Below are positions 36,877 to 62,321 of a stretch of 64,000 nt of DNA, in pieces; position 1 is the first letter of the stretch; each line of letters begins with the position of its first letter. A model generated the notes under the pieces. It did no database searches. It had not been told where the DNA came from and saw nothing but the letters and a program-made list of their open reading frames with translations. Source of the DNA: Kappaphycus alvarezii. Its lineage: Eukaryota; Rhodophyta; Florideophyceae; Gigartinales; Solieriaceae. The position numbers were made by a program, and so were the translations under genes. The DNA lies in NCBI GenBank assembly GCA_002205965.3, contig NADL03000620.1, positions 2,232,001-2,296,000 of the forward strand, read 5' to 3'.

Positions 36877-37593
36877 TGATGTGCGCAAATTCGCGCACGA
36901 AAAAATCTAGAGGACCATGATTGTATACAGTATCGGAATTGGGAAGATATTTTTACAGTTTTTGAATTTGCAAGATATTTTTAATTTGGGTGAGTGTGGC
37001 AAATTCGTCGGCTGATTTTTTTCATTTTAGGACACGCTGTCATAGTAGATGTCAGTACAGTTCCAGGTTGTGGGTGATACGACAAGTAGCTCTGAAAGGT
37101 CTATATAATGGCCACATCAATTCCCACCCCTGGCCGATGGATGGCTGGCATGGGTATGGCACCTAGATATTTACCTTGAGGAAATATCTTCTAATAGTCT
37201 CTCTGGTTCACACGATTACCGTGAATACATTTTATGGTTATTAGTATGTTTGTTGAGACTTTTGGGGTAGCCAAAAGTCTATATAAGCCGAGTAAACTGC
37301 TTCCTTTAGTGGAGGTGAAGCAAGTTGGCAGACAACTTCAAGCCAAGTCCCGAGTAGTAGGAAGTTGAGAGTCAACTTCAGACCCAAGAAAACTTTTTCT
37401 TACGCTAGTCGCAGAGCGTCGGTGGTAGACCCTGCCCCTTTTATACTTGCTTGTAGCTTCCTCAACTCTCTTCTATATACACTCCCTTTTGTTCGTTCAA
37501 CAATACCACGGCAGCACTTTTGTCGCTCGCAACACCTCCTTCTCAGGGTAATTGGTTCTGAGGATCTCTTCCCCCGCCGATTTACCCCTATCA
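36877..37593 (+). repeat. LTR A (5' LTR of element 1)
   Basis: 717 bp, beginning TGATGTGCGC and ending CCCCTATCA. A TATATAAG box lies at 37280-37287, placing the likely transcript start (R) near 37310. It is almost identical to LTRs B to E. Confidence 0.92.
37280..37287 (+). promoter_or_regulatory. TATA box in LTR A
   Basis: TATATAAG follows an 18-base imperfect palindrome (TTTTGGGGTAGCCAAAAG). The same arrangement is found at 44069-44076, 49600-49607, 56391-56398 and 61920-61927 in the other LTRs, which supports its role as the element's core promoter. Confidence 0.7.
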
Positions 37594-37612
37594 TTTGGTA
37601 CTCTTGTGGAGG
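37594..37612 (+). other. Candidate primer-binding site of element 1
   Basis: TGGTACTCTTGTGGAGG starts two bases after the LTR, where Gypsy elements pair with the 3' CCA end of a tRNA. The matching sequence is at 49913 and 62237. The tRNA could not be named. Confidence 0.5.
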
Positions 37613-37680
37613 GGGTTGCCCCGAGGTATTCGAGTTGAGCAGTAGTAAGGAACACTTCGGGGGATTTCTTTTCTGTAATC

Positions 37681-39552
37681 ATGGATCTCAACGCTGCTCG
37701 TATAACGTTCACAGGGGCAAGACTGAAGACGTTGAGGAGTTTCTTTACACATATGTCAACGTTGTGATGCGTGAGAAGGGCGATGAAGAGAAGGCCGCAA
37801 GTATTCGCCTATCTTCATGGTGACGCAAAGCACAAATATAAGTCCAAGTTTATCGACGGGTGGTCTCTTAACGGGAATGGGCGTAACTTCGGTGAGGTAT
37901 GTGAGTGGCTTGTGAAAGAGTATGCTAAGGAGGTAGAACCAGATGAGATGATTCGTACCGCCATAGAGGCCCGGCTCAACTTCGACGATTTGTTAAGCTC
38001 ATTGGTGTACTTGTGTGATCTTTATGAAAAGGCTGGGTTCAACGCCCAAGCCAAGTACGGAATGCTGCGTAAGGCGGCTATGGGGGATAAGCGGCTCTCC
38101 GATTTCCTCCTCATCAAGGGCCCTCACACTTTTGATGAACTGAAGGGTACCATAGTAGAATTTGTCAAAAATTCGGAGACGTTTCAGTCACTGAGTGAGG
38201 TACCGAGGGAAACCCGCACATCGATGTCTATCGTACATCCTGAAAAGAATTATCAAAGGCCGGCTACTAGTGCAGCGGCATTAGAATCTGTCAGGAGCGA
38301 TGTCAAAAACTTGGAAGAAAGGTTGGAAACCCGATTCGATAATCGACTTGACATGATAACCTCGCAGTTGGAAAGCCTTACTCTTACCATTAAGAAGAAC
38401 CAGTCTGGGGCCCCTAAGGCCGCAGAAGTCTGTTCTTACTGTCACAAGCCTGGACACTTTGCAAACAGGTGTCCTGATAATCCACATAGAAACACTCGTT
38501 GTGCAAAGTGCGGTCGATATGGGCATCATGAAAGTAACTGCTGGTCTAAAGACAACAGAAGAGCAAATTTATCGGAAGCAAGGAGTGAGTCAGGACCAGA
38601 GGTGAAAATCTTACAAAATAGAAGGGATCAAAGGTTGACGGATGCCGGTAACGTATCCATCGCTGAAGAGATTAGTCAAGTCAATGTGACAAAAAGGGAT
38701 GGGGAAGGGAACATTTTATCGAAGAAACCTAGGCTAGAGTATGGAATGCTGGAGCATATCCCAGCACCTGTACCTCCTCGAACCAAGAGGTCTGATCAAG
38801 TTGTTCCAGGAGTGGGAGTCACTCCGGCCAAGAAGACGAAAAAGAGTAAGAAAGTTAAGAGTATCTCTAAGGACGTACTAGAGTATGTGAAGAGGTACAA
38901 TTTGGTGGCTGAGCTTGCATCGGCCCCAACTGGGATAACGTTTGGTCAACTTTTGAGGGGCGACGCAGAGGATGCGAGAAAAGAACTCAAAAAAATTATC
39001 AGGTCTAATAAGTCCGCTAAGGGTAAGAAACTGTTTCTTCAATCGGCCTCGACAGCACCAAGACGTCTTAAGCTGGTACCAGTCAAAGTATTGGGTATGA
39101 AAACCCAAGCTCTCTTCGATTCGGGTGCTGTTCCAAACCTCATTTCAGAAACTTTGGTGACAGATCTAGGTCTCGAAATTACTCCAACGACTCGAAAAAT
39201 AACTGTAGCGGATGGAACCGTCTCAAAATGCATGGGCACTGTTGACAAGGTTTCCGTGTTCTTTGGGGACTCTAAAGTTGATGTAGACTTTCTTGTCATG
39301 CGGATCTCCCTTTCGATGCAATCATTGGCTGCCCACCATGGAAAGACTAGGACATGCATTGACTTGGGCAACCAAATGGTTTCAGTTAATATTGACGGCA
39401 GAACCGTGAAGATGCCCCTGGATTTCGACAAAAGCACGCATCCTGAAGATTTAAAAGAAACGGACAGTGAAGATTTCACTTCTAGCTATGACAGCGAAGA
39501 TTCGGAACCAACTAACACTTTCGGAAGTGGAAAAGGGTACCCTCGGGGGTAA
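37681..39552 (+). CDS. gag-protease region of Gypsy element 1
   Basis: The region begins MDLNAARITF, followed by a helical capsid-like part (FDDLLSSLVYLCDLYEKAG and others). It has two CX2CX4HX4C zinc knuckles near 38430-38550 (CSYCHKPGHFANRC and CAKCGRYGHHESNC) that bind the genomic RNA. After a long Lys-rich linker comes a retropepsin active site, LFDSGAVPNLIS, at 39111-39146, so protease is encoded with gag. An acidic tail ends at TAA 39550-39552, which overlaps the next ATG (TAATG). In this copy the region is broken. Confidence 0.8.
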
Positions 39553-42500
39553 TGAACATGGCATGGGACGATTATGATTCCGGGTTTGAAACAGATGACG
39601 ACTGGATTCTAGGATAAGTTTGAAACCCGAATGTGTTTCTTTTTGCGATGATATCGAATCAAAGGACAGAATTCGGAGCATGAAAGAAGATTACCTTTGC
39701 AAAGAAAATAAGAATACGTCGAATTCCATATATGAAGATGTGAGCACGACGGAAGAGGTCCTTCAAAATATTGAGGTTGAGGATCAAGAAGAAAAAGGGC
39801 GCCAAATGGCAGAAATCCAAGGAAAAGTGCAGCACCTTCCCGCCCCGCCTCACTGAAAATATCCGACATGTTAACATCTTCCGAAGTAATTGCATGGAGC
39901 GTTTCAGATTTAAGACAAGCAAGTGTACCGGTTACTCACTCGTTCGAACTTACCGACACTCAACCGATTTACCACAAGCCTAGACGTCAACCGCCAAAAT
40001 ATGACCAATTTATCTCAGAAAATGTTACAAGTATGCTGAAAAATGATATTATTCGACCAGTTTCATCCCCATGGTCGTTTCCAGTTGTGGTCGCACCAAA
40101 GAAGGATGGAAAGCTGCGTTTTTGCGTCGATTACCGACAACTGAACCAGAGAATGATACCCGATCGATTTCCGATTCCGAACATGGAGGAGATCCTCGAG
40201 GACCTGAAGGACGGGAGATATTTCACCTCAATTGACCTTTACACTGGCTATTGGCAGATTCCATTGGATGAAAAATGTAAGGAAAAAACAACCTTTACCA
40301 GCAAAGCCGGTACGTTCAGGTTCGAAGTGATGCCTTTTGGTCTCATGAATGCACCAGCTACATTCCAAAGAATGATGAACGAGGTTTTGAAAGGACTTCC
40401 ATTCGCAAGAGTCTATATCGATGATGTCGTCATATTCTCAGAAACATTGGATCAGCACATCTCGCACGTCAAGACAGTTGTGGAGAGGATATCGGAGTAT
40501 AGCTTGAAAATTAAGTTGAGCAAATGCTTCTTTGCGAAAACTTCTATCCAATTACTCGGTCATATCGTCGACCAAGAGGGAATTAGAGTGGATCCAGAGA
40601 AAACGAAAAAAATAAAGTTGGCACCAAGGCCCGCTTCAAAGACGGAGGTCCGAAGCTTCTTAGGACTGGCCTCATATTACAGAAGATTTATCAAAGATTT
40701 CGCCAAGACTGCAGCACCGTTACATGCCAGCACTACGAAGAACGGAAAATTTTACTGGAACAAGGAAATGGAAACTGCATTTCAGGAGCTTAAAGATAAG
40801 CTATGTGTCCCCCCAGTTCTCATGTACCCAGATTTCAAGAGACCATTCGTTGTGGAGACAGATGCCTCAGAACGGTCTTTGGGTGCCGTTTTGTCCCAAA
40901 AAGATGAAAACGGAAGACTACACCCTGTTCAATTCGCAAGCCGAACTCTGAATGATGCGGAAAAGAGATACTCAGTCTGCGAGAAAGAAGCGCTAGCTGT
41001 CGTCTTCGCGCTGAAAAAGTTTCGCGTATACCTTTTATCACTCGAGAAATTTGTCTTGATAACTGATCACCAGGCACTTAAAACAGCATTCCAAAAGAAG
41101 GATGTACATCACCGCTTGGCCCGATGGCTCGACATTTTCGCAGAATATCGGTTTGAAATTGTGTATAGACCCGGACGCAATAATCAGCCTGCCGATTACC
41201 TATCCCGCTTGAGGGACGCACTGATTCCAAATGAAAAAGCTTCGGAGGACATCGTCGGAGTCGCCGAGTTGCAGTTGCCGAACGATAACGAGTACGAAGC
41301 TAATATTCACGGACTGATCAAATTCCTCGATGGACTAGAAATGAGAAAGGTTGATCTTGAACACCGAAATTGGGTACGCAGGAATCAAAAGGCTTTTACA
41401 TTGTGGAATGGGAAACTCTTCCGGCACACTAAAGCCGGTCCCCGACTAGTGGCCCCTTTGAAAGAAAGAATGAAGATCTTGAGGACTTTCCATGATGAGC
41501 TAGGGCATTGGGATCTCGAAACAACCAAAAAATTCGTAACTGAGAGATTCTGGTGGCCCGGTATCCATAAGGACGTCTATAATTTCGTGAAAAGCTGCGA
41601 CAACTGCCAAAAATTCACTCCAATACGGAAGTATAAGACAACTCTAAGTTTTCCAGTTTCCGGTCTCTTTGAAACCTTCTCAATTGACTTCGCGGGCCCG
41701 TTCAAGGAAACTTCTTCCGGAAACAAATATCTCCTTATAGGGGTGGAACATCTTACTGGATGGCCAATAGCAGTTGCAGTCGAGGAGGCAAATGCTGAGG
41801 TGGTACTGAGATTCATCGAAAAAGAAATAATTGAACCGTTTGGTCTTCCAAAAAGGATCATCTCGGATAACGCCCTTTGTTTTACTGCAACTTCACTTTT
41901 TTTTGGAAGAGAAAGGGATTCAGCTGAAGACCGTTCTCGCATACGCTCCTATGTCCAACGGGAAAGCGGAGAGGATGGTTGGAACCATCAAACGAGCAAT
42001 ATCGAAAACTATGTGGAGAATGAAATCCAGTGGGAAGATGCCTTACCAAAAGTGTTATACGGCTACCGTCGAAGAAGAGGAAGAAATGGACGCTCACCAT
42101 TCGAGCTAATGTACGGAAGGGCTCCTAGAATGTTACAGAGAGACATGGAAACAAATATTATCGATGAAGAGAGTAGGGAAGTTGAACTACTGGCCACCGA
42201 AGGCTGGAGATCACACCGCGCGCTAACACAGACAAGAAATAAGGATGCAGAACCTGCAGTCAGAACCTTTTCAGTTGGCTCTAAAGTACTTGTAGTACAT
42301 GGAAAAGCAATGCAGCAGGCTGTGAAGTGGCCGGCCTTCCAAACCAAGTACTCGAACCCTTGCATCGTCACGGAGGAAAGACACCCGCACTATCAGCTCT
42401 GTTCAAGCTCAGGGAAGAGATCAAGGAGGGCCATCCATGCACGTCGTCTGGTCCCTTACCATCAGAGGCCTGAAGAATTCCTTCTCACACAGGACTATGC

Positions 42501-43633
42501 GCAACCACGGGGCATACTCATCTTTAACTATAGAATGATTCCTATGGGAGGAAAAAGGGCCTGGGAATGGATCATCTCGGTTACGCGGGACTACTACGAA
42601 CTCCACGTAATCATCCATTTCTACATTAATATATGCCTATGTTTTCGTACGTTGAACGGACCATTGCTACCTGAAGAAGATTTCCGACTATTAATAAGAG
42701 TTCTATTTTCATTCCAAAACGGAAGGTTCACGGAAGCAGGTCCAGAGTTTGTGGAGGTAATATATCATTACTCTATAGGAAGATATGGAATGGTAGCTGC
42801 TGGAGACTTGTCGCAAACGTATCTGAATATTATCCGTCCAATTTACGTATTTCTCAAGAACAACCAAGACGTGCGACTGAGAGGTTACGCCTTACCCCCG
42901 GATATGGAATACAGGCTGGTCCCGTATCCTCTATGGGAACCTTACGTTTCTCCGCCACAAATTGGGAACGTTGGAGGCGGCGAGGATCCTCCTGAAGCAG
43001 TGATGATGACCAGAGGAGGACCTTCAGGAGACAACAACCCGCCCAGAAGAGGTTCCGGTCGTCCCCGAGAGGACCTCGTGCAGGTCCCAGTACGTCAGGA
43101 GCTGGTCGCGGCCATTCATCGGGACCGTCCACCACAACTTCATCTCTAGCTCTCCTTCACAACCATGCACAGCATACAGTCGGAAGAAGAAGATTATCTT
43201 TTTGGCTGCGCAATATCTCCGAGGATGCGAACGATGCGCAGGTCATTTCTTATTTCATGATAAGCATCTGTTTATGTTTTAGGGCGCTACATGGACCGCA
43301 CTTATCTTACGAAGATTCGTTTCATTGATGATGCGCGTCTTCTTTTCTTATCGACATCCATTCCTCCGGCATCTTCCAGAAGAGTTTGCATATCACATAT
43401 ATTTTTTCACTCTTGGAAGATTCGGAAGAGTCACGGAAGAAGAATGTATTCAACCCCACCTCGATGTGATCAAACCAATATATGAGGCTATGCTACAAAG
43501 TGAGGTACCAGTAATGCGAACCTACTTTTTAGAGCATCATATTGGTAATCAGTTGCATCCGTACCCGTTTGAGAGACCATACATTTTATCAATAAGACAG
43601 CGAACACTAACGGAAGCAGAAGAAGAGCAGTGA
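39552..43633 (+). CDS. pol region of Gypsy element 1
   Basis: Order of parts: an acidic linker; reverse transcriptase (PVVVAPKKDGKLRFCVDYRQ, catalytic YIDD at 40414-40425); RNase H (VVETDASERSLGAVLSQ near 40850); an integrase zinc-binding region with HDELGHW and CDNCQKF (about 41490-41610); and an integrase core with DFAGPF, SDNALCF and SNGKAER. Then follow two related C-terminal domains of unknown function (about 42590-42960 and 43190-43620). No recognisable chromodomain follows the integrase. The copy is broken in a few places. Confidence 0.85.
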
Positions 43634-43653
43634 CGAGTCGGGACGTTCGTCTT

Positions 43654-43666
43654 GAGCGAGAGGGCG
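43654..43666 (+). other. Polypurine-type tract before LTR B
   Basis: GAGCGAGAGGGCG abuts the TG of LTR B; the same sequence abuts LTR D at 55976-55988. It is mostly purine and lies where plus-strand priming occurs in LTR elements. Confidence 0.6.
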
Positions 43667-44381
43667 TGATGTGCGCAAATTCGCACGAAAAAATCTAGAT
43701 GAGGACCATGATTGTATACAGTATCGGAATTGGGAAGATATTTTTACAGTTTTTGAATTTGCAAGATATTTTTAATTTGGGTGAGTGTGGCAAATTCGTC
43801 GGTTGATTTTTTCATTTTAGGACACGCTGTCATAGTAGATGTCAGTACAGTTCCAGGTTGTGGGTGATACTACAAGTAGCTCTGAAAGGTCTATATAATG
43901 GCCACATCAATTCCCACCCCTGGCCGATGGTGGCTGGCATGGGTATGGCACCTAGATATTTACCTTGAGGAAATATCTTCTAATAGTCTCTCTGGTTCAC
44001 ACGATTACCGTGAATACATTTTATGGTTATTAGTATGTTTGTTGAGACTTTTGGGGTAGCCAAAAGTCTATATAAGCCGAGTAAACTGCTTCCTTTAGTG
44101 GAGGTGAAGCAAGTTGGCAGACAACTTCAAGCCAAGTCCCGAGTAGTAGGAAGTTGAGAGTCAACTTCAGACCCAAGAAAACTTTTTCTTACGCTAGTCG
44201 CAGAGCGTCGGTGGTAGACCCTGCCCCTTTTATACTTGCTTGTAGCTTCCTCAACTCTCTTCTATATACACTCCCTTTTGTTCGTTCAACAATACCACGG
44301 CAGCACTTTTGTCGCTCGCAACACCTCCTTCTCAGGGTAATTGGTTCTGAGGATCTCTTCCCCGCCGATTTACCCCTATCA
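43667..44381 (+). repeat. LTR B (3' LTR of element 1)
   Basis: 715 bp, TGATGTGCGC to CCCCTATCA, followed directly by GTCTA at 44382-44386. The TATA box is at 44069-44076. Confidence 0.92.
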
Positions 44382-44986: not shown

Positions 44987-45557
44987 CAGAGCCTACACAA
45001 GCGCATGCTCGCAGTAATTGATGAGTAATGGCGAGCGTACGAAGTACTCTATTGTTTAAGTAAAGGGAGAAATGTTTTATTGTGTTGCTTGTAATTTCGT
45101 CACTTTCGGACTACTATTTTTTATTTTCAGCTTCTCTTTTTTTTCGGTATTTAAACTTTACAATTCCGGTAGCTTCTGCGCTACTATAGAGCAGGTGTAG
45201 CCCTGTATTTATAGTCTGCTCAATTTAGAGATGGTTAGTGGCAATGGGGTAATTTTTGAGGACTGACCAATTTCATATTTGCACACTATGTTCCATAATG
45301 CATCAAATAATTGATACAAATAGTCGTCATGTGGGAATCAAGAAACAGTATATCCACCTAGTCAAGAACGGCAAAAATTTGGCCCTAACGCGCTTGTAAT
45401 GTAAAGTTTGTGTATAATTTGCGGGCAACAGTGCCACTTGTTGCAGTAAGCAGTAGAATCTAGCTAGGACCTTGTAACTCTCAGCAGTAATGTACAGTAA
45501 ATTATGTGCGATGTTAATGACGTAAACTTTGATGGCACTTTTACAGTACGGTACGAT
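44987..45557. other. Spacer stretch, no gene seen (unit 1)
   Basis: Probably the 3' flank of the Tc1-like element. No terminal repeat partner was recognised. The stretch is repeated at 57,310-57,885 in unit 2. Confidence 0.35.
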
Positions 45558-47083: not shown

Positions 47084-49194
47084 TTAGACTTTATAACTCT
47101 TATAATTATTCGTTCCAAATGTACTAACTTCAATACATACCATAAGTCGGCGCTCAGTATTTTCCCTTGATTGCTGTAAGTAGAAATTAATAGGCGGATT
47201 TTTTTTGCCTATAATTCTCTCCAGATCATGTCTAATCAATAGTACAGAGCAGAAACCATCAAAAAATGAAAGAGTATCTCCATCCGCACTGGATCGGGAG
47301 ATACAACAAGACTTATATGAACAAAAGTGAATAATTTGTGCAGCTATTAGAGCCATCAGCCAACAGTATGATGAAGCCAAGTTGAACATTACTGTCAGGG
47401 TGATTATTGTGAGATGAGGCAGCATAGACAAGAAGGTAGTGTGATTCCTGATCTAGCTTCGAAAAGCGAGGTTTCAAAATGAACTTTTTTGTTCAAATAC
47501 CTGATTATTGAATGCAATTTGCGATTTTCTTCCTTTATGTGGGTATATTCAGCGACCTGAGCCGCAAAGAACACAACACACACATATCTGGACCGGTATG
47601 TATAACCCATGAAACTTAGCACGAACATATCTACACTCGGCAAAGGATGCATTAATATGGAGAAAAAGTAGTTTCATGATGTACTGAGCTTGTGAAAGTC
47701 GACTTTCGGCCTTGTCAGAAATGTTGCAGTCCATCCAAGATATGTAAACATCTCTGCGTCAGACAGCTTGATATCGAAATCTTTGGCAAATATCTGTTTT
47801 TATTCGCTTCTTCTGATCGGAGTACCAGCCTGCAAAATGTCATCCACGTATGATTCGGATAGAGCACTAAGCTTATTATATAGCTTTCTAAAGAAGAAGT
47901 CTGTGTAAAAGGTATGTAAATCACTAGTCCTTTGCTGCATCCGGAGCTTAGCAATTTGAAACTTGTTTTTTTTCTCGCACCAATAGTCTCCATTGCCCGT
48001 TAGGCCTTGCAGCGGGCGAATGGCTTGTAGAATCTCCAAAGTGCAAGGTCAATACATTCAGGATTGACTAATGTCCTACGTTTTAAGCCGAAAGCAGATT
48101 GTAAGTAAGCATATTTCACATCAACGGACCAGATATCAAAACCAATGATGGTTGGAAGTGGTAGTAAGAGTCTTATAGAGGATTAGTGGAGATCATAATT
48201 ATTTTGAATAATGGAATGATTGTCCTTATCTCTACTGCCGCGGAAAAAGACCTGTGCTTTGAAGATAGGCGAGTCAAAATCATTTTGAATGAAGGAGCTT
48301 AGAAGCCTTGAGGGATGTATCTTTCTATTTTGGCCAGCTTCTTCAGCAAATGCAATGCGAAAATGCCATGATCCACCAAAGCAATAATTTCATTGCTCTT
48401 TGCCTCATCGAACTGACTCTTCCGTGGATCCTCATGGTGAGTTTTTTTATGCATGTAGGATAATGCAGGTATGGTTGGCTTTTGATTACAGCTCATTTTA
48501 GTAAGATGCCTTTTCGACTGGTGACGAACAGGTCCCCGATAAATAATCGAGGACCTGTTCGTCACTGGGGAGTACTGACGCGGATGCCCGTTGAAATAGA
48601 TATTTAGAAACGAGTTTCTCGTACAAATCTCTGGCCGCTTGTGCGGTTCGCATTCTCTCTCGTTGATTTGGGCATTCTTTGGGGGAAACATGGAGTAACA
48701 ACGGTTACACGCCAAAAAAAAAGCAGTTATAGCACCAAAATAAGGTTGCAAACTGTGTTATTAATGTCTTGCACAGATTTAGCCAATGTGATGTCCTCAA
48801 GCAAGCGAGGTTGAACGCAGAGAATCTTTTCGTACATAGTGCATAAAGTAGAATGGTATTTCTCTCCAGTCCGCAAGGAGTTATGGCTCTCCATACCATT
48901 GGTGGCTAGGCGAATACCTGCCTGTTCGCAGTTGTACTACCATTCCTTCGGAAGGAACAAAGAACCTTGATCAGTGAGCACGGATTCCGGATTGCCAATG
49001 TACGTAGAGGACCAAACCTGCATTAAATTATTCCACAATTTGTTAGTGTCGCAAGCACGCAAAAATGCAAGAGCACTAAACCTAGTAACAGCGTCGATAA
49101 TATGGAGTACAAGTCTCGCCTTCCGTCCCCGTCTGTGGCTTTTTAAGGTAAATGATATCGAGAATAATGCGATGATTGAATTTGACCTTGTCTG
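47084..49194 (-). mobile_element. Copia-like retrotransposon fragment (unit 1)
   Basis: Read on the minus strand from 49190: an integrase segment (VLHIIDAVTRFSALAFLRAC, then STYIGNPESVLTDQGSLF), then an RT segment near 48020-47800 (GLTGNGDYW, LSESYVDDILQAG and DAEMFTYLGMDCN), then an RNase H-like part towards 47500. The integrase-before-RT order is that of Copia, and the motifs resemble a fungal Copia lineage. Gag and protease are missing, because the fragment is cut at 49194 by LTR C. It is old, with many breaks. Confidence 0.7.
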
Positions 49195-49910
49195 TGATGT
49201 GCGCAAATTCGCACACGAAAAAAATCTAGATGAGGACCATGATTGTATACAGTATCGGAATTGGGAAGATATTTTTACAGTTTTTGAATTTGCAAGATAT
49301 TTTTAATTTGGGTGAGTGTGGCAAATTCGTCGGTTGATTTTTTCATTTTAGGACACGCTGTCATAGTAGATGTCAGTACAGTTCCAGGTTGTGGGTGATA
49401 CTACAAGTAGCTCTGAAAGGTCTATATAATGGCCACATCAATTCCCACCCCTGGCCGATGGGTGGCTGGCATGGGTATGGCACCTAGATATTTACCTTGA
49501 GGAAATATCTTCTAATAGTCTCTCTGGTTCACACGATTACCGTGAATACATTTTATGGTTATTAGTATGTTTGTTGGACTTTTGGGGTAGCCAAAAGTCT
49601 ATATAAGCCGAGTAAACTGCTTCCTTTAGTGGAGGTGAAGCAAGTTGGCAGACAACTTCAAGCCAAGTCCCGAGTAGTAGGAAGTTGAGAGTCAACTTCA
49701 GACCCAAGAAAACTTTTTCTTACGCTGTCGCAGAGCGTCGGTGGTAGACCCTGCCCCTTTTATACTTGCTTGTAGCTTCTCAACTCTCTTCTATATACAC
49801 TCCCTTTTGTTCGTTCAACAATACCACGGCAGCACTTTTGTCGCTCGCAACACCTCCTTCTCAGGGTAATTGGTTCTGAGGATCTCTTCCCCGCCGATTT
49901 ACCCCTATCA
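49195..49910 (+). repeat. LTR C (5' LTR of element 2)
   Basis: 716 bp, TGATGTGCGC to CCCCTATCA, with the TATA box at 49600-49607. It is preceded by GTCTG rather than GTCTA. Confidence 0.92.
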
Positions 49911-49997
49911 TTTGGTACTCTTGTGGAGGGGGTTGCACCCGAGGTATTCGAGTTGAGCAGTAGTAAGGAACACTTCGGGGGATTTCTTTTCGTAATC

Positions 49998-51873
49998 ATG
50001 GATCTCAATGCTGCTCGTATAACGTTCACAGGGGCAAGACTGAAGACGTTGAGGAGTTTCTTTACACATATGTCAACGTTGTGATGCGAGAGAAGGGCGA
50101 TGAAGAGAAGGCCGCAAGTATCTTCGCCTATCTTCATGGTGACGCAAAGCACAAATATAAGTCCAAGTTTATCGACGGGTGGTCTCTTAACGGGAATGGG
50201 CGTAACTTCGGTGAGGTATGTGAGTGGCTTGTGAAAGAGTATGCTAAGGAGGTAGAACCAGATGAGATGATTCGTACCGCCATAGAGGCCCGGCTCAACT
50301 TCGACGATTTGTTAAGCTCATTGGTGTACTTGTGTGATCTTTATGAAAAGGCTGGGTTCAACGCCCAAGCCAAGTACGGAATGCTGCGTAAGGCGGCTAT
50401 GGGGGATAAGCGGCTCTCCGATTTCCTCCTCATCAAGGGCCCTCACACTTTTGATGAACTGAAGGGTACCATAGTAGAATTTGTCAAAAATTCGGAGACG
50501 TTTCAGTCACTGAGTGAGGTACCGAGGGAAACCCGCACATCGATGTCTATCGTACATCCTGAAAAGAATTATCAAAGGCCGGCTACTAGTGCAGCGGCAT
50601 TAGAATCTGTCAGGAGCGATGTCAAAAACTTGGAAGAAAGGTTGGAAACCCGATTCGATAATCGACTTGACATGATAACCTCGCAGTTGGAAAGCCTTAC
50701 TCTTACCATTAAGAAGAACCAGTCTGGGGCCCCTAAGGCCGCAGAAGTCTGTTCTTACTGTCACAAGCCTGGACACTTTGCAAACAGGTGTCCTGATAAT
50801 CCACATAGAAACACTCGTTGTGCAAAGTGCGGTCGATATGGGCATCATGAAAGTAACTGCTGGTCTAAAGACAACAGAAGAGCAAATTTATCGGAAGCAA
50901 GGAGTGAGTCAGGACCAGAGGTGAAAATCTTACAAAATAGAAGGGATCAAAGGTTGACGGATGCCGGTAACGTATCCATCGCTGAAGAGATTAGTCAAGT
51001 CAATGTGACAAAAAGGGATGGGGAAGGGAACATTTTATCGAAGAAACCTAGGCTAGAGTATGGAATGCTGGAGCATATCCCAGCACCTGTACCTCCTCGA
51101 ACCAAGAGGTCTGATCAAGTTGTTCCAGGAGTGGGAGTCACTCCGGCCAAGAAGACGAAAAAGAGTAAGAAAGTTAAGAGTATCTCTAAGGACGTACTAG
51201 AGTATGTGAAGAGGTACAATTTGGTGGCTGAGCTTGCATCGGCCCCAACTGGGATAACGTTTGGTCAACTTTTGAGGGGCGACGCAGAGGATGCGAGAAA
51301 AGAACTCAAAAAAATTATCAGGTCTAATAAGTCCGCTAAGGGTAAGAAACTGTTTCTTCAATCGGCCTCGACAGCACCAAGACGTCTTAAGCTGGTACCA
51401 GTCAAAGTATTGGGTATGAAAACCCAAGCTCTCTTCGATTCGGGTGCTGTTCCAAACCTCATTTCAGAAACTTTGGTGACAGATCTAGGTCTCGAAATTA
51501 CTCCAACGACTCGAAAAATAACTGTAGCGGATGGAACCGTCTCAAAATGCATGGGCACTGTTGACAAGGTTTCCGTGTTCTTTGGGGACTCTAAAGTTGA
51601 TGTAGACTTTCTTGTCATGCCGGATCTCCCTTTCGATGCAATCATTGGCTGCCCCACAATGGAAAGACTAGGACATGCATTGACTTGGGCAACCAAATGG
51701 TTTCAGTTAATATTGACGGCAGAACCGTGAAGATGCCCCTGGATTTCGACAAAAGCACGCATCCTGAAGATTTAAAAGAAACGGACAGTGAAGATTTCAC
51801 TTCTAGCTATGACAGCGAAGATTCGGAACCAACTAACACTTTCGGAAGTGGAAAAGGGTACCCTCGGGGGTAA
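49998..51873 (+). CDS. gag-protease region of Gypsy element 2
   Basis: Same order as in element 1: capsid-like helices, two CCHC knuckles near 50750-50872, a Lys-rich linker (KKTKKSKKVKSISKD), and the protease LFDSGAVPNLIS near 51429-51464 followed by MPDLPFDAIIGCPTMERLG, the usual strand after a retropepsin active site. The acidic tail ends at TAA 51871-51873, overlapping the next ATG. Confidence 0.8.
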
Positions 51874-51875
51874 TG
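51871..51875 (+). promoter_or_regulatory. TAATG stop-start overlap between gag-protease and pol
   Basis: The stop of the gag-protease frame and the first ATG of the following frame share a base. The same pentamer is at 39550-39554 in element 1. Overlapping stop-start signals of this form are used for coupled reinitiation in some RNA viruses and in some non-LTR elements; here it is a candidate only. Gypsy elements more often use a -1 shift. Confidence 0.4.
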
Positions 51876-54800
51876 AACATGGCATGGGACGATTATGATT
51901 CCGGGTTTGAAACAGATGACGACTGGAATTCTAGGATAAGTTTGAAACCCGAATGTGTTTCTTTTTGCGATGATATCGAATCAAAGGACAGAATTCGGAG
52001 CATGAAAGAAGATTACCTTTGCAAAGAAAATAAGAATACGTCGAATTCCATATATGAAGATGTGAGCACGACGGAAGAGGTCCTTCAAAATATTGAGGTT
52101 GAGGATCAAGAAGAAAAAGGGCGCCAAATGGCAGAAATCCAAGGAAAAGTGCAGCACCTTCCCGCCCCCGCCTCACTGAAAATATCCGACATGTTAACAT
52201 CTTCCGAAGTAATTGCATGGAGCGTTTCAGATTTGACAAGCAAGTGTACCGGTTACTCACTCGTTCGAACTTACCGACACTCAACCGATTTACCACAAGC
52301 CTAGACGTCAACCGCCAAAATATGACCAATTTATCTCAGAAAATGTTACAAGTATGCTGAAAAATGATATTATTCGACCAGTTTCATCCCCATGGTCGTT
52401 TCCAGTTGTGGTCGCACCAAAGAAGGATGGAAAGCTGCGTTTTTGCGTCGATTACCGACAACTGAACCAGAGAATGATACCCGATCGATTTCCGATTCCG
52501 AACATGGAGGAGATCCTCGAGGACCTGAAGGACGGAGATATTTCACCTCAATTGACCTTTACACTGGCTATTGGCAGATTCCATTGGATGAAAAATGTAA
52601 GGAAAAAACAACCTTTACCAGCAAAGCCGGTACGTTCAGGTTCGAAGTGATGCCTTTTGGTCTCATGAATGCACCAGCTACATTCCAAAGAATGATGAAC
52701 GAGGTTTTGAAAGGACTTCCATTCGCAAGAGTCTATATCGATGATGTCGTCATATTCTCAGAAACATTGGATCAGCACATCTCGCACGTCAAGACAGTTG
52801 TGGAGAGGATATCGGAGTATAGCTTGAAAATTAAGTTGAGCAAATGCTTCTTTGCGAAAACTTCTATCCAATTACTCGGTCATATCGTCGACCAAGAGGG
52901 AATTAGAGTGGATCCAGAGAAAACGAAAAAAATAAAGTTGGCACCAAGGCCCGCTTCAAAGACGGAGGTCCGAAGCTTCTTAGGACTGGCCTCATATTAC
53001 AGAAGATTTATCAAAGATTTCGCCAAGACTGCAGCACCGTTACATGCCAGCACTACGAAGAACGGAAAATTTTACTGGAACAAGGAAATGGAAACTGCAT
53101 TTAGGAGCTTAAAGATAAGCTATGTGTCCCCCAGTTCTCATGTACCCAGATTTCAAGAGACCATTCGTTGTGGAGACAGATGCCTCAGAACGGTCTTTGG
53201 GTGCCGTTTTGTCCCAAAAAGATGAAAACGGAAGACTACACCCTGTTCAATTCGCAAGCCGAACTCTGAATGATGCGGAAAAGAGATACTCAGTCTGCGA
53301 GAAAGAAGCGCTAGCTGTCGTCTTCGCGCTGAAAAAGTTTCGCGTATACCTTTTATCACTCGAGAAATTTGTCTTGATAACTGATCACCAGGCACTTAAA
53401 ACAGCATTCCAAAAGAAGGATGTACATCACCGCTTGGCCCGATGGCTCGACATTTTCGCAGAATATCGGTTTGAAATTGTGTATAGACCCGGACGCAATA
53501 ATCAGCCTGCCGATTACCTATCCCGCTTGAGGGACGCACTGATTCCAAATGAAAAAGCTTCGGAGGACATCGTCGGAGTCGCCGAGTTGCAGTTGCCGAA
53601 CGATAACGAGTACGAAGCTAATATTCACGGACTGATCAAATTCCTCGATGGACTAGAAATGAGAAAGGTTGATCTTGAACACCGAAATTGGGTACGCAGG
53701 AATCAAAAGGCTTTTACATTGTGGAATGGGAAACTCTTCCGGCACACTAAAGCCGGTCCCCGACTAGTGGCCCCTTTGAAAGAAAGAATGAAGATCTTGA
53801 GGACTTTCCATGATGAGCTAGGGCATTGGGATCTCGAAACAACCAAAAATTCGTAACTGAGAGATTCTGGTGGCCCGGTATCCATAAGGACGTCTATAAT
53901 TTCGTGAAAAGCTGCGACAACTGCCAAAAATTCACTCCAATACGGAAGTATAAGACAACTCTAAGTTTTCCAGTTTCCGGTCTCTTTGAAACCTTCTCAA
54001 TTGACTTCGCGGGCCCGTTCAAGGAAACTTCTTCCGGAAACAAATATCTCCTTATAGGGGTGGAACATCTTACTGGATGGCCAATAGCAGTTGCAGTTGA
54101 GGAGGCAAATGCTGAGGTGGTACTGAGATTCATCGAAAAAGAAATAATTGAACCGTTTGGTCTTCCAAAAAGGATCATCTCGGATAACGCCCTTTGTTTT
54201 ACTGCAACTTCACTGCTTCGTTTTTTGGAAGAGAAAGGGATTCAGCTGAAGACCGTTCTCGCATACGCTCCTATGTCCAACGGGAAAGCGGAGAGGATGG
54301 TTGGAACCATCAAACGAGCAATATCGAAAACTATGTCGGAGAATGAAATCCAGTGGGAAGATGCCTTACCAAAAGTGTTATACGGCTACCGTCGAAGAAG
54401 AGGAAGAAATGGACGCTCACCATTCGAGCTAATGTACGGAAGGGCTCCTAGAATGTTACAGAGAGACATGGAAACAAATATTATCGATGAAGAGAGTAGG
54501 GAAGTTGAACTACTGGCCACCGAAGGCTGGAGATCACACCGCGCGCTAACACAGACAAGAAATAAGGATGCAGAACCTGCAGTCAGAACCTTTTCAGTTG
54601 GCTCTAAAGTACTTGTAGTACATGGAAAAGCAATGCAGCAGGCTGTGAAGTGGCCGGCCTTCCAAACCAAGTACTCGAACCCTTGCATCGTCACGGAGGA
54701 AAGACACCCGCACTATCAGCTCTGTTCAAGCTCAGGGAAGAGATCAAGGAGGGCCATCCATGCACGTCGTCTGGTCCCTTACCATCAGAGGCCTGAAGAA

Positions 54801-55955
54801 TTCCTTCTCACACAGGACTATGCGCAACCACGGGGCATACTCATCTTTAACTATAGAATGATTCCTATGGGAGGAAAAAGGGCCTGGGAATGGATCATCT
54901 CGGTTACGCGGGACTACTACGAACTCCACGTAATCATCCATTTCTACATTAATATATGCCTATGTTTTCGTACGTTGAACGGACCATTGCTACCTGAAGA
55001 AGATTTCCGACTATTAATAAGAGTTCTATTTTCATTCCAAAACGGAAGGTTCACGGAAGCAGGTCCAGAGTTTGTGGAGGTAATATATCATTACTCTATA
55101 GGAAGATATGGAATGGTAGCTGCTGGAGACTTGTCGCAAACGTATCTGAATATTATCCGTCCAATTTACGTATTTCTCAAGAACAACCAAGACGTGCGAC
55201 TGAGAGGTTACGCCTTACCCCCGGATATGGAATACAGGCTGGTCCCGTATCCTCTATGGGAACCTTACGTTTCTCCGCCACAAATTGGGAACGTTGGAGG
55301 CGGCGAGGATCCTCCTGAAGCAGTGATGATGACCAGAGGAGGACCTTCAGGAGACAACAACCCGCCCAGAAGAGGTTCCGGTCGTCCCCCGAGAGGACCT
55401 CGTGCAGGTCCCAGTACGTCAGGAGCTGGTCGCGGCCATTCATCGGGACCGTCCACCACAACTTCATCTCTAGCTCTCCTTCACAACCATGCACAGCATA
55501 CAGTCGGAAGAAGAAGATTATCTTTTTGGCTGCGCAATATCTCCGAGGATGCGAACGATGCGCAGGTCATTTCTTATTTCATGATAAGCATCTGTTTATG
55601 TTTTAGGGCGCTACATGGACCGCACTTATCTTACGAAGATTCGTTCTTGATGATGCGCGTCTTCTTTTCTTATCGACATCCATTCCTCCGGCATCTTCCA
55701 GAAGAGTTTGCATATCACATATATTTTTTCACTCTTGGAAGATTCGGAAGAGTCACGGAAGAAGAATGTATTCAACCCCACCTCGATGTGATCAAACCAA
55801 TATATGAGGCTATGCTACAAAGTGAGGTACCAGTAATGCGAACCTACTTTTTAGAGCATCATATTGGTAATCAGTTGCATCCGTACCCGTTTGAGAGACC
55901 ATACATTTTATCAATAAGACAGCGAACACTAACGGAAGCAGAAGAAGAGCAGTGA
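51873..55955 (+). CDS. pol region of Gypsy element 2
   Basis: Linker, RT (YIDD at 52734-52745), RNase H (near 53170-53520), and integrase with zinc-binding (about 53800-53930) and catalytic parts (DFAGPF near 54005, SDNALCF near 54180, SNGKAER near 54275). An open stretch from 53826 to 55955 holds the integrase and everything after it. Following the integrase come domain 1 (about 54897-55270), a Gly/Pro/Arg-rich linker (about 55271-55500) and domain 2 (about 55510-55915), ending with TGA just before the purine tract. The two domains share CLCFRxLxGP, EDxxLLxRVxFS, GRxGxV, IxPIY and PYPxxxPY. Confidence 0.87.
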
Positions 55956-55988
55956 CGAGTCGGGACGTTCGTCTTGAGCGAGAGGGCG

Positions 55989-56704
55989 TGATGTGCGCAA
56001 ATTCGCACGAAAAAATCTAGATGAGGACCATGATTGTATACAGTATCGGAATTGGGAAGATATTTTTACAGTTTTTGAATTTGCAAGATATTTTTAATTT
56101 GGGTGAGTGTGGCAAATTCGTCGGTTGATTTTTTCATTTTAGGACACGCTGTCATAGTAGATGTCAGTACAGTTCCAGGTTGTGGGTGATACACAAGTAG
56201 CTCTGAAAGGTCTATATAATGGCCACATCAATTCCCACCCCTGGCCGATGGGTGGCTGGCATGGGTATGGCACCTAGATATTTACCTTGAGGAAATATCT
56301 TCTAATAGTCTCTCTGGTTCACACGATTACCGTGAATACATTTTATGGTTATTAGTATGTTTGTTGAGACTTTTGGGGTAGCCAAAAGTCTATATAAGCC
56401 GAGTAAACTGCTTCCTTTAGTGGAGGTGAAGCAAGTTGGCAGACAACTTCAAGCCAAGTCCCGAGTAGTAGGAAGTTGAGAGTCAACTTCAGACCCAAGA
56501 AAACTTTTTCTTACGCTAGTCGCAGAGCGTCGGTGGTAGACCCTGCCCCTTTTATACTTGCTTGTAGCTTCCTCAACTCTCTTCTATATACACTCCCTTT
56601 TGTTCGTTCAACAATACCACGGCAGCACTTTTGTCGCTCGCAACACCTCCTTCTCAGGGTAATTGGTTCTGAGGATCTCTTCCCCCGCCGATTTACCCCT
56701 ATCA
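55989..56704 (+). repeat. LTR D (3' LTR of element 2)
   Basis: 716 bp, with the TATA box at 56391-56398, followed by GTCTA at 56705-56709 and the Tc1-like 3' half. Confidence 0.92.
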
Positions 56705-56709
56705 GTCTA

Positions 56710-57310
56710 CATCGCCTATTTTGAAGTATAGAAGGGTGAAAAGGTTCTGGAAATGACGAGCGAGCACAAGAAAACTCGATGGCAGTAGTCTTGCCGACTT
56801 TTGTCAGAAGTTAACATTTTCTGGACGCATGTAGTCTTTTCGGACTAGAAGAAATATAACATCGCTGGGCCTGAAGTATTCGCGATGTACTGGCATGACT
56901 TGTGCAAGGAACCACAGCGCTTCCAGACGAGGTAAAATGGCGGCAGCGGTGTGATGGTATTGGCGGCTATTTCTTTATGGAACGTCACATTTGATTTTTT
57001 ATCAGATAAGCAGGACTACAGCAAGTAATGCACGACTCCAGAAAGTGGGTTGCTACACTGTACCGCTGAAGTTTTTGGCGAATCGACGACCTGGACATTT
57101 CGGTAAGACTAGCATTCACCGTTCCCAACGGACCCATTCTTTTCTCTCTCAGCGCATCGTCATAGTGCTACAATTTTCACCTAAATCTTCATATCTAAAT
57201 ATAATTAAAAACGTACGGGGCTTACAGTTTTGTGGGTTATATCCGCGGGGGAGGCGCTACGATAATGTGGCTGCTTTGTGCATCTATTGATAGTGGATAC
57301 ATACTGAACC
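56710..57310 (+). pseudogene. Tc1-like transposase, 3' half (unit 2 copy)
   Basis: Near-identical duplicate of 44387-44986: the same FSD, WHDLCKEPQRFQTR and IHRSQRTHSFLSQR segments and the same lost catalytic positions. There is no 5' half to its left in this unit, because the left flank of element 2 is Copia-like. This is strong evidence that the segment was copied as part of the 12.3-kb unit. Confidence 0.75.
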
Positions 57311-57885
57311 TCTAGCAGAGCCTACACAAGCGCATGCTCGCAGTAATTGATGAGTAATGGCGAGCGTACGAAGTACTCTATTGTTTAAGTAAAGGGAGAA
57401 ATGTTTTATTGTGTTGCTTGTAATTTCGTCACTTTCGGACTACTATTTTTTATTTTCAGCTTCTCTTTTTTTTCGGTATTTAAACTTTACAATTCCGGTA
57501 GCTTCTGCGCTACTATAGAGCAGGTGTAGCCCTGTATTTATAGTCTGCTCAATTTAGAGATGGTTAGTGGCAATGGGGTAATTTTTGAGGACTGACCAAT
57601 TTCATATTTGCACACTATGTTCCATAATGCATCAAATAATTGATACAAATAGTCGTCATGTGGGAATCAAGAAACAGTATATCCACCTAGTCAAGAACGG
57701 CAAAAATTTGGCCCTAACGCGCTTGTAATGTAAAGTTTGTGTATAATTTGCGGGCAACAGTGCCACTTGTTGCAGTAAGCAGTAGAATCTAGCTAGGACC
57801 TTGTAACTCTCAGCAGTAATGTACAGTAAATTATGTGCGATGTTAATGACGTAAACTTTGATGGCACTTTTACAGTACGGTACGA

Positions 57886-58756
57886 TGGTAGTAAATCCTT
57901 ACGAGTTTTAAAGCAAGAAAGTTTGCTGATAGTATTCAGAGCTCCATGCAGTCATGCGGCTCATGCAGCGGGTGGAACCTAGCGCGCCTGCATCACTAGA
58001 AGGGTACATGCAAATGGGTAAGAAAGTCGCGAAGTTTTTGCTCAAGGGAGAAACCACGACGGGAAGCAGCGAAGGAATAGAGGCATCGGGAAAACCTCTG
58101 GCCTTCGTCCCCCAAGGGGTCACAGATGTTAATCCTGGGGGGAGAGGAGTATATAGTTTTGGTCGTTGTAATCTCCGTAATGAAGATGTCTCTCGCGGCT
58201 TGCGATTGTCGCTGCATCGCATGCGATGACTATACTTGGCGACATGTGGCGGCTAGCAGAGGGCTGGGCAACGGTACTGTCGAATGCGATATAACTTGTG
58301 ATATCCCAGTTCGGCATAGTACGTACGTAGAGCGGCAGGGAGTGCCAGTGTCCAAGAAAGAAAGGGAAGTTCTACAAGGCAGCTAACATGCTGTGGACGC
58401 CACGACCGTCTTTGACTCGCTGCAACGGGGAGTTCTACGAAAAAATCAAAGATCCTGCCATGATCGGTGAACTGGAACTTCGCGTGCTCAACTTCTTGGA
58501 TTTCCCTCGGTGCAAGCTCCTGTGCTAATTGCAACCCTTTGCTTTCAAATATTTTGTGGCCCCCTTTGTCGAAACAACCCAGTTTCTCAAAGAGATCTTC
58601 CCGGCTATCGCTCACCGCCATCATAAACTCCACGCAAGTTATTCATTGTCGCCCCACCAGCGCCTCGGCGCTGTCATTCGGTCTGCTGCTGCTATCGCTA
58701 AAATTGCCTGTTCTCGGCTGCATATAACTGACATGGACGACACAGTTTGCTCGTAA
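57886..58756 (+). pseudogene. Unrecognised coding segment in the spacer (unit 2 copy)
   Basis: Duplicate of 45558-46426, with small run-length differences that change where the frames join. The part corresponding to the 143-codon stretch begins at 57954. Its retained similarity to 565-750 is equal to that of the unit 1 copy. Confidence 0.35.
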
Positions 58757-59412
58757 CTGAGAGCTCAGACCCATTCCTGTTTCCTGAAACAAAAGTGACC
58801 TGAACAAACCAATGCCCCAACAGAATAAAGACTTTTAAAGGCCTAGGAGGGAAAAACGTTTTTCACCAATGAATTTAACAAATGGTAATAGTGTAAAGAA
58901 AAAAAGCAAATACACACAGGGAAGGACGGGCACACGTCAAAGTGCGAAAGCTCTCTGTGCTTTGTTCTTCAAACTTGGTGGTGCTGCCACTTCTTTATTC
59001 TCAACTAGAAGTTAGATATGTACTTATATAGTGTAATTGGAGCAATGAAATTGATGCCCTAGTCGAATGATATTTCGAGAGTAAAGGCAAGATTAAGATT
59101 CCAATTAAGTATCGATCCGAATTGATATCATCAAGAAAATTCCAGTTTTGGAATAATTCAAGTTGACGCATGAAATGATGCACTTTAGTATCAATTAAAC
59201 CATATTACAACTAATTATCAATTAAACAATAGCCTCCTAATGTTTAACATACATTCACCTCTTATGTCGGAGTACAACTCGATTATAGCGATTAATTCCT
59301 AGTAGGGCTCATTACCCATTGTTCGACACTGTGACTGACCTTATTTGTCTCAAGGTGTCTTTTCATAGCATTATTACTTCTTTTCTCGGTCGGTGAGTCG
59401 GTAATATTGTCC
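58757..59412. other. AT-rich spacer stretch, no gene seen (unit 2)
   Basis: Duplicate of 46427-47083. Confidence 0.3.
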
Positions 59413-61517
59413 TTAGACTTTATAACTCTTATAATTATTCGTTCCAAATGTACTAACTTCAATACATACCATAAGTCGGCGCTCAGTATTTTCCCTTGAT
59501 TGCTGTAAGTAGAAATTAATAGGCGGATTTTTTTTGCCTATAATTCTCTCCAGATCATGTCTAATCAATAGTACAGAGCAGAAACCATCAAAAATGAAAA
59601 GAGTATCTCCATCCGCACTGGATCGGGAGATACAACAAGACTTATATGAACAAAAGTGAATAATTTGTGCAGCTATTAGAGCCATCAGCCAACAGTATGA
59701 TGAAGCCAAGTTGAACATTACTGTCAGGGTGATTATTGTGAGATGAGGCAGCATAGACAAGAAGGTAGTGTGATTCCTGATCTAGCTTCGAAAAGCGAGG
59801 TTTCAAATGAACTTTTTGTTCAAATACCTGATTATTGAATGCAATTTGCGATTTTCTTCCTTTATGTGGGTATATTCAGCGACCTGAGCCGCAAAGAACA
59901 CAACACACGCAATATCTGGACCGGTATGTATAACCCATGAAACTTAGCACGAACATATCTACACTCGGCAAAGGATGCATTAATATGGAGAAAAAGTAGT
60001 TTCATGATGTACTGAGCTTGTGAAAGTCGACTTTCGGCCTTGTCAGAATGTTGCAGTCCATCCCAAGATATGTAAACATCTCTGCGTCAGACAGCTTGAT
60101 ATCGAAAATCTTTGGCAAATATCTGTTTTTATTCGCTTCTCTGATCGGAGTACCAGCCTGCAAAATGTCATCCACGTATGATTCGGATAGAGCACTAAGC
60201 TTATTATATAGCTTTCTAAAGAAGAAGTCTGTGTAAAAGGTATGTAAATCACTAGTCCTTTGCTGCATCCGGAGCTTAGCAATTTGAAACTTGTTTTTTT
60301 TCTCGCACCAATAGTCTCCATTGCCCGTTAGGCCTTGCAGCGGGCGAATGGCTTGTAGAATCTCCAAAGTGCAAGGTCAATACATTCAGGATTGACTAAT
60401 GTCCTACGTTTTAAGCCGAAAGCAGATTGTAAGTAAGCATATTTCACATCAACGGACCAGATATCAAAACCAATGATGGTTGGAAGTGGTAGTAAGAGTC
60501 TTATAGAGGATTAGTGGAGATCATAATTATTTTGAATAATGGAATGATTGTCCTTATCTCTACTGCCGCGGAAAAAGACCTGTGCTTTGAAGATAGGCGA
60601 GTCAAAATCATTTTGAATGAAGGAGCTTAGAAGCCTTGAGGGATGTATCTTTCTATTTTGGCCAGCTTCTTCAGCAAATGCAATGCGAAAAAATGCCATG
60701 ATCCACCAAAGCAATAATTTCATTGCTCTTTGCCTCATCGAACTGACTCTTCCGTGGATCCTCATGTGAGTTTTTTATGCATGTAGGATAATGCAGGTAT
60801 GGTTGGCTTTTGATTACAGCTCATTTTAGGTAAGATGCCTTTCGACTGGTGACGAACAGGTCCCGATAATAATCGAGGACCTGTTCGTCACTGGGGAGTA
60901 CTGACCGATGCCCCGTTGAAATAGATATTTAGAAACGAGCTTCTCGTACAAATCTCTGCCGCTTGTGCGGTTCGCATTCTCTCTCGTTGATTTGGGCATT
61001 CTTGGGGGAAACATGGAGTAACAACGGTTACACGCCAAAAAAAAAGCAGTTATAGCACCAAAATAAGGTTGCAAACTGTGTTATTAATGTCTTGCACAGA
61101 TTTAGCCAATGTGATGTCCTCAAGCAAGCGAGGTTGAACGCAGAGAATCTTTTCGTACATAGTGCATAAAGTAGAATGGTATTTCTCTCCAGTCCGCAAG
61201 GAGTTATGGCTCTCCATACCATTGGTGGCTAGGCGAATACCTGCCTGTTCGCAGTTGTACTACCATTCCTTCGGAAGGAACAAAGAACCTTGATCAGTGA
61301 GCACGGATTCCGGATTGCCAATGTACGTAGAGGACCAAACCTGCATTAAATTATTCCACAATTTGTTAGTGTCGCAAGCACGCAAAAATGCAAGAGCACT
61401 AAACCTAGTAACAGCGTCGATAATATGGAGTACAAGTCTCGCCTTCCGTCCCCGTCTGTGGCTTTTTAAGGTAAATGATATCGAGAATAATGCGATGATT
61501 GAATTTGACCTTGTCTG
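59413..61517 (-). mobile_element. Copia-like retrotransposon fragment (unit 2 copy)
   Basis: Duplicate of 47084-49194, with the integrase part next to LTR E and the RT part near 60140-60370. It is cut at the same base (GTCTG then TGATGTGCGC) by LTR E. Confidence 0.7.
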
Positions 61518-62234
61518 TGATGTGCGCAAATTCGCACACGAAAAAAATCTAGATGAGGACCATGATTGTATACAGTATCGGAATTGGGAAGATATTTTTA
61601 CAGTTTTTTGAATTTGCAAGATATTTTTAATTGGGTGAGTGTGGCAAATTCGTCGGTTGATTTTTTCATTGTAGGACACGCTGTCATAGTAGATGTCAGT
61701 ACAGTTCCAGGTTGTGGTGATACGACAAGTAGCTCTGAAAGGTCTATATAATGGCCACATCAATTCCACCCCTGGCCGATGGGTGGCTGGCATGGGTATG
61801 GCACCTAGATATTTACCTGAGGAAATATCTTCTATAGTCTCTCTGGTTCACACGATTACCGTGAATACATTTTATGGTTATTAGAATGTTGTTGGAGACT
61901 TTTGGGGTAGCCAAAAGTCTATATAAGCCGAGTAAACTGCTTCCTTTAGTGGAGGTGAAGCAAGTTGGCAGACAACTTCAAGCCAAGTCCCGAGTAGTAG
62001 GAAGTTGAGAGTCAACATTCAGACCCAAGAAAACGTTTTCTTACGCTGGTCGCAGAGCGTCAGTGGTAGACCCTGCCCCTTTTATACTTGCTTGTAGCTT
62101 TCTCAACTCTTTTCTATATACACTCCCTTTTGTTCGTTCAACAATACCACGGTAGCACTTTTGGTCGCTCGCAAAACCTCCTTCTCAGGGTATCGGTTCT
62201 GAGGATCTCTTCCCCCGCCGATTTACCCCTATCA
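61518..62234 (+). repeat. LTR E (5' LTR of element 3)
   Basis: 717 bp, TGATGTGCGC to CCCCTATCA, with the TATA box at 61920-61927. It carries more small differences than LTRs A to D do among themselves. Confidence 0.9.
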
Positions 62235-62321
62235 TTTGGTACTCTTGTGGAGGTTTGCACCCGAGGTATTCGAGTTGAGCAGTAGTAAGGAACACTTCGG
62301 GGGGATTTCTTTTCGGTAATC

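Follow-up and report, generated by a model that had tools for sequence, protein, structure and literature searches.

A tandemly doubled, unrecognised domain behind the integrase of Ty3/Gypsy retrotransposons in the red alga Kappaphycus alvarezii, a putative targeting module

How LTR retrotransposons choose their insertion sites is understood for few lineages. In chromoviruses, which have the order gag, protease (PR), reverse transcriptase (RT), RNase H (RH) and integrase (IN), a chromodomain follows the GPY/F module within the same ORF. The chromodomain and a DnaQ-like exonuclease are named as well-known accessory domains of LTR elements in PMC6338049. In integrases of the CRM clade, GPY/F is followed by a type II chromodomain, by a CR motif or by nothing further; for this clade a "putative targeting domain" is described, with the CR motif encoded within the 3' LTR (PMC3059260). 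Bdelloid LTR elements have captured extra ORFs; Juno, Vesta and TelKA possess family-specific coding sequence downstream of the integrase, and GPY/F is altered to GPC in TelKA and Vesta6c (PMC5408684).

The K. alvarezii element described here shares with chromoviruses the gene order and the extra domain behind a GPY/F-like module in one ORF. In place of a chromodomain, which Pfam did not detect behind this module, it has about 370 residues (from the extended first copy, D1, to the stop) with a doubled, unrecognised and probably helical domain. As in CRM elements with a CR motif, the integrase has a C-terminus other than a chromodomain and there are relatives that end soon after GPY/F, but here the module is doubled and its ORF stops 33 bases before the 3' LTR, in contrast to the CR motif as described (PMC3059260). 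By position, the module corresponds to the "putative targeting domain" of the CRM clade. The GPC variant of TelKA and Vesta6c (PMC5408684) recurs in four loci of the K. alvarezii genome (L056, L064, L066 and L068), whereas the window copy has SNPC at this place (both read by eye). With Juno, Vesta and TelKA the element shares the presence of family-specific coding sequence downstream of the integrase; the bdelloid ORF3s are separate, however, whereas this module is fused to the integrase and matches no described ORF3 domain in Pfam. In the open-licence PMC literature, of which our coverage is far from complete, we found neither a published description of the domain nor a family with a tandem unrecognised domain at this place, in agreement with the earlier note made from the sequence, which knew of no such family; the parts of PMC2864245 and PMC3605345 that were available describe no comparable module either.

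The window, that is, the whole stretch of 64,000 nucleotides that was analysed, contains the element twice (Table 1). The assignment of the element to Ty3/Gypsy (Metaviridae) follows from the order PR-RT-RH-IN between LTRs according to Pfam and from the 5-bp target site duplication (TSD) that flanks element 1; the LTRs of element 2 are 716 bp long. The earlier note had seen the same layout in element 1. This is correct for the overall arrangement, but while D1 of element 1 lies near the end of an ORF (39781-43149), its second copy, D2, is split over two frames (42996-43328 and 43283-43633). Moreover, positions 36870-51679 match 49188-64000 at 99.2%, which reveals a tandem array with a period of 12.32 kb, each unit comprising one Gypsy element and the approximately 4.8 kb that follow it downstream. 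At 61517 a third unit begins, which is cut short by the end of the window, so that three units are reached, which are about 98-99% alike. Elements 1 and 2 belong to a single array, and element 1 therefore is no independent case; independent support for the doubled domain comes from other genomic copies and families. The array junction at the LTR edge is consistent with unequal recombination between neighbouring copies. Small indels between the units disrupt different frames and may be assembly errors. Outside approximately 36.4-57.5 kb, where the window contains 56 ORFs of at least 100 aa, traces of Copia-like elements (SH3_retrovirus, E 6e-14; gag_pre-integrs, E 0.001; one ORF each) and one further aspartyl protease ORF, probably of the third array unit, were detected. 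Overlapping GC-rich ORFs on the plus strand at 18861-20016 (among them one of 248 aa at 19273-20019) had no Pfam match at E <= 0.001 and may represent a host gene.

Table 1. Features of the Gypsy elements in the window
Feature	Position	Strand	Basis
Element 1, layout as element 2; TSD GTCTA (5 bp)	36877..44381	+	Translation, self-comparison, ends read
5' LTR of element 2 (TGATG...TATCA)	49195..49910	+	49194-49910 98.9% identical to 55988-56704; ends read
gag-protease ORF: two CCHC zinc knuckles, aspartyl protease	50081..51730	+	Pfam PF13650 E 4e-11; zf-CCHC only E 0.06, knuckles by eye
Reverse transcriptase	52368..53225	+	Pfam RVT_1 E 7e-30
RNase H	53122..53856	+	Pfam RT_RNaseH E 1e-39
Integrase: H2C2, rve core, GPY/F-like module	53817..54833	+	Pfam Integrase_H2C2 E 4e-10, rve E 1e-9; module by eye
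D1, first domain copy	54834..55286 (core 54903-55271)	+	Core alignment, upstream extension, profiles; Pfam match none
Linker, Gly/Pro/Arg/Ser-rich	55287..55469	+	Composition; 61 residues once D2 extended upstream
D2, second domain copy	55470..55952 (core 55539-55907); stop 55953-55955	+	Core alignment, upstream extension, profiles; Pfam match none
3' LTR of element 2	55989..56704	+	LTR-LTR identity; ends read

Translation of element 2 bore out that 54897-55940 is open and contains the motifs named in the earlier note; the ORF 53817-55955 runs free of stops from the integrase through D1, the linker and D2. The two domain cores align without gaps, with 45 of 123 residues identical (37%) and 72 of 123 positive (BLASTP E 1e-28 against a database of one sequence). 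The Smith-Waterman score is 219, whereas none of 2000 shuffles scored above 60. The mutual similarity that had been proposed as a check was also found with profiles kept pure, one of six D1 copies alone and one of five D2 copies alone (profile-profile probability 99.1, E 7.4e-19). At the DNA level D1 and D2 are 50% identical; their synonymous distance was not computable, which we read as saturation. Upstream of the cores, 23 further residues align in register: their ungapped score of 19 (shuffle mean -25) was matched in a fraction of 0.00015 of 20,000 shuffles, although the 60 upstream residues, when aligned locally with gaps, give no significant score on their own (20% of 2000 shuffles scored equally high). 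The repeat unit therefore comprises about 146 aa. Hence, the two homologous stretches recognised earlier are real, but they start about 23 residues before the point assumed and exceed the 110-120 residues suggested. The Gly/Pro/Arg/Ser-rich linker between the halves is present as well. The 84-residue stretch up to the D2 core, whose first 61 residues are the linker, has a pI of 12.0 and contains 11 Arg and no Lys, and is flanked by the acidic domains D1 (pI 5.9) and D2 (pI 5.5).

Searches of Pfam, PHROGs, NCBIfam and the PDB sequences gave no meaningful match for either D1 or D2, so that a match of the two halves to two unrelated known families, which would have spoken against a duplication, was not seen in these collections. 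Pfam returned nothing for the 352 residues at the C-terminus (E up to 1), nothing for D1 and D2 (E up to 10), and no chromodomain in ten domain copies (E up to 1). The best weak library matches were DUF6355 (E 0.15) and GlmD (E 0.17), each in one of the ten copies, and a ten-member profile had weak matches to the PDB sequences 6vr4 (E 0.18) and 8gi1 (E 3.7). Searches for relatives covered viral contigs, prokaryotic contigs and the K. alvarezii genome itself; relatives were confirmed neither in viral contigs (two domain scans and one integrase scan) nor in prokaryotic contigs (one scan). Descent from the element's own gag was considered as well and rejected, as D1-D2 has no meaningful similarity to it. 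A low-confidence AlphaFold2 model of D1 (pLDDT 51.9) with four main helices suggests that this domain is mainly helical, while D2 gave no usable model (pLDDT 38.6). Foldseek listed 58 matches to the D1 model at E <= 10 and none at E <= 0.001.

Further copies were sought in the assembly from which the window derives (336.0 Mb in 884 contigs). Its 5.8S rRNA region looks red-algal, as does an actin gene that reads through in a single frame; among the PDB sequences this actin is nearest to that of Dictyostelium, and none of the 60 matches listed carries the name of a red alga. The best 150 of 5520 (D1) and of 5371 (D2) first-look candidates were all 100% identical to the query, and the domain copy number is thus a lower bound only, because near-identical copies crowd the best 150 matches. 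Divergent families were sought by DNA patterns for CLCFRxLxGP with codon choices unused by the window copies, in which F, I, M or V could replace some L. These patterns hit 6, 33 and 32 places (reversed-pattern controls hit none each time), and 24 of the 71 places were fetched as loci. Together with 28 loci found by near-identical matches they form a set of 52 domain-selected loci, which by its construction cannot show absence. Both D1 and D2 occur at 51 of the 52 (E <= 1e-3), in part as remnants, such as the D2 of L045, whose match spans residues 14-42; L047 has D1 only within the 3 kb examined. The unbroken frame from integrase through D2 also exists elsewhere in the genome, as one frame of 1373 aa contains D1 (C84:307935) and D2 (C84:307251). 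Locus L055, where the integrase was not matched near the domain, was considered as a host gene and rejected: it has stops inside and lies behind gag-pol-like fragments, and thus is a broken element copy.

The internal region of eight loci (L016-L021, L023 and L027) matches that of the window up to position 55990. For L017-L020, L023 and L027 it is only within the LTR that similarity sets in again (from 49570/56360, at about 93-97%), a sign that their LTRs may differ in the 5' part, whereas in L016 and L021 it was not seen to resume within the stretch examined. At L031 (G000:C581:57744-57859) a 5S rRNA gene lies apart from the host arrays, whose period is about 1.5-1.6 kb; it looks bacterial and possibly stems from a contaminant or an associated bacterium.

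A view independent of the domain was obtained with a profile of the integrase zinc-binding region, from which six of at least 150 places were examined. Two of them (L058 and L061) have both D1 and D2. Two others (L057 and L060) have lost a large internal part and retain no more of the module than the tail of D2; the deletion joins integrase residue 168 to D2 residue 101 at the same point in both and perhaps marks a spreading non-autonomous derivative. L059 passes from integrase residue 220 into other sequence and, like L056, has neither D1 nor D2. In the family of L056, none of five loci (L063, which is the same place as L056, L064, L065, L066 and L067) has D1 or D2, and the same holds for the one locus, L068, of a second family with 14 equal-scoring integrase matches. 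The module thus is absent from six copies of two families. In L056, L064 and L066 the reading frame, followed by eye, stops about 40 residues past the GPC module. The pol ends with 'IHARRLVPFVVRPRSPQN' in L064 and in the same manner with 'IHARRLQLYTRRPKHLC' in L068. In a hand alignment, the extended D1 begins about 8 residues beyond the stop of these relatives, and thus the module starts close to the end of their integrase. The single-copy family predicted by the earlier note, according to which the domain should occur as one or two copies, was not found: elements either have two copies, lack the domain altogether or keep it in a degraded or partly deleted state, and the sole D1-only case among the loci seen is L047.

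The history of the module was followed in phylogenetic trees. In an unrooted tree of 24 integrase sequences (without L068 and without rows of fewer than 200 usable residues), in which broken copies inflate branch lengths, the L063 family stands apart (support 1.000), and the module-bearing loci are distributed over at least two groups, one of which consists of L033, L034, L038, L040, L041 and L042 (support 0.998). The module is present in several lineages; either one branch acquired it, or the L063 and L068 families lost it. Among 11 stop-free sequences, D1 copies cluster with D1 and D2 copies with D2 (support 1.000), and the duplication therefore is older than the divergence of the lineages examined. 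The core alignment, the pure profiles and the joint occurrence at nearly all domain-selected loci likewise support the earlier suggestion that the domain was duplicated inside the element. In trees of the single halves (rows with fewer than 70 usable residues dropped), L033, L034, L038, L040, L041 and L042 form one D1 clade (26 rows, support 0.996), while L032, L033, L034, L048-L052 and L054 form one D2 clade (23 rows, support 0.999). All four combinations of these types occur: L033 and L034 have both, the window has neither, L038, L040, L041 and L042 have the D1 type only, and L049, L051 and L052 have the D2 type only. The D1 and D2 trees conflict, and the halves therefore have been exchanged between lineages. 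L042 is a telling example, with a D2 that is 87% identical to that of the window, a D1 of 63% and an integrase of 51-54% identity. Recombination between D1 and D2, as by template switching during reverse transcription, is the simplest account; chimeric assembly is possible at single loci and would be an unlikely source of repeated combinations.

Selection was assessed by dN/dS between the window copy and pieces of at least 90 residues from the 24 pattern loci, leaving out pieces more than 97% identical and domain pieces below 39.5%. In four of five stop-free D1 pairs, dN/dS lies between 0.18 and 0.36 (L053 0.18, L049 0.20, L048 0.36, L045 0.36); the fifth, L036, reaches 0.51. The four stop-free D2 pairs comprise L036 (0.10), L039 (0.79), and L049 and L052, in which synonymous sites are saturated and pN is 0.39 and 0.33, respectively; in distant D2 pairs generally, pN of 0.31-0.39 contrasts with pS of at least 0.87. 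Integrase pieces of the pattern loci gave similar values (0.10-0.79 where computable). Copies with stops vary more widely, up to 0.98 in D1 of L037, as expected of decaying insertions. D1 and D2 are thus under purifying selection in most stop-free pairs, which supports the earlier view that both halves were kept by selection.

The D1-linker-D2 region may be regarded as an accessory module that was acquired downstream of an already complete Ty3/Gypsy integrase, and its tandem duplication would have preceded the divergence of the element lineages examined. Its likeliest role would be that of a putative targeting domain, at the position of the chromovirus chromodomain or the CR motif. The two mainly helical domains and the flexible, Arg-rich linker could form a two-point tether that would hold the complex of integrase and cDNA to a chromatin or nuclear protein of the host, with the linker adding nucleic-acid contacts. 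The module would stay on the integrase, bind a host factor and affect where or how the element integrates. The unbroken frame in element 2 and genomic copies, the relatives whose pol stops close to where the module begins, the presence of both halves at 51 of the 52 loci, the low dN/dS of most stop-free D1 pairs and the CRM precedent for the position favour such a two-headed tether, which we propose tentatively as a good possibility; the low-confidence structure models and the high dN/dS of some pairs (D1 of L036 and L037, D2 of L039), which decaying copies would also show, argue against it. The targeting or nucleoprotein-binding function suggested in the earlier note is likewise putative. Of 17 3' flanks read, the 14 with at least 60 bases were compared, and besides the window's own pair only one pair was similar (the two window flanks represent one site, and flanks resembling the 5' leader were dropped before the count). 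In the flanks, G is slightly favoured at the first position and C at the sixth (11/17 each). No common target emerged from the flanks compared, so strict DNA-sequence targeting is unlikely.

The main alternative to the tether is that the element protease could cut the module off the integrase, which would point to another role, namely that of a free protein that would act in assembling particles, packaging RNA or nuclear transport and whose RG-rich linker would bind nucleic acid. The strongly basic linker region between acidic domains would suit such a protein, and extra proteins after the integrase exist in other LTR elements (the bdelloid ORF3s; PMC5408684). We nevertheless consider this somewhat unlikely, as the module has no separate ORF, does not meaningfully resemble the element's gag, and is comparable by position to chromodomains and CR motifs, which belong to the integrase. 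Patchy presence among related families, doubling and exchange of halves are patterns expected of proteins that interact with the host, and the module might counter or co-opt a host defence or silencing factor instead of choosing the insertion site. However, selection is purifying rather than diversifying in most stop-free comparisons, and the Pfam and NCBIfam searches revealed no family known from defence or counter-defence, which renders this explanation improbable. An origin as what is left of a third, envelope-like ORF that became joined to pol would fit the position after the integrase and the hydrophobic stretch that opens each domain core. Yet the highest 19-residue hydropathy is 1.44, below the usual threshold of 1.6 for a membrane anchor, and thus no clear anchor exists. 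D1-D2 lies within the integrase ORF, and the separate ORF3 with a transmembrane anchor of errantivirus-like, env-bearing Gypsy elements was not found; we know of no env-like ORF with such a tandem repeat, and regard this origin as very improbable. That D1 and D2 are alike by chance, or that the tail is neutral baggage, would agree with the many broken genomic copies but is contradicted by the D1/D2 score far above all shuffles, the low dN/dS in most stop-free pairs and the presence of both halves at 51/52 loci, and deserves hardly any credence.

With the integrase-bound tether as the preferred reading, old, selected and swapped copies of the module may help to decide where or how the element inserts. 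A doubled, selected and unrecognised module behind the integrase, present in high copy in one genome alongside related families that lack it, allows a natural comparison between elements that have it and elements that do not. Should it serve in targeting, it would join chromodomains and the CR motif as a further type, and the exchange of halves would show how targeting could evolve by parts. It is a rather doubtful, more far-reaching idea that the module represents a new integrase-targeting fold, a two-headed tether whose halves are traded by recombination between red-algal Gypsy lineages, so that swapping one half would provide new host partners. The module may also help to account for the abundance of such elements in the large genome of a cultivated red seaweed.
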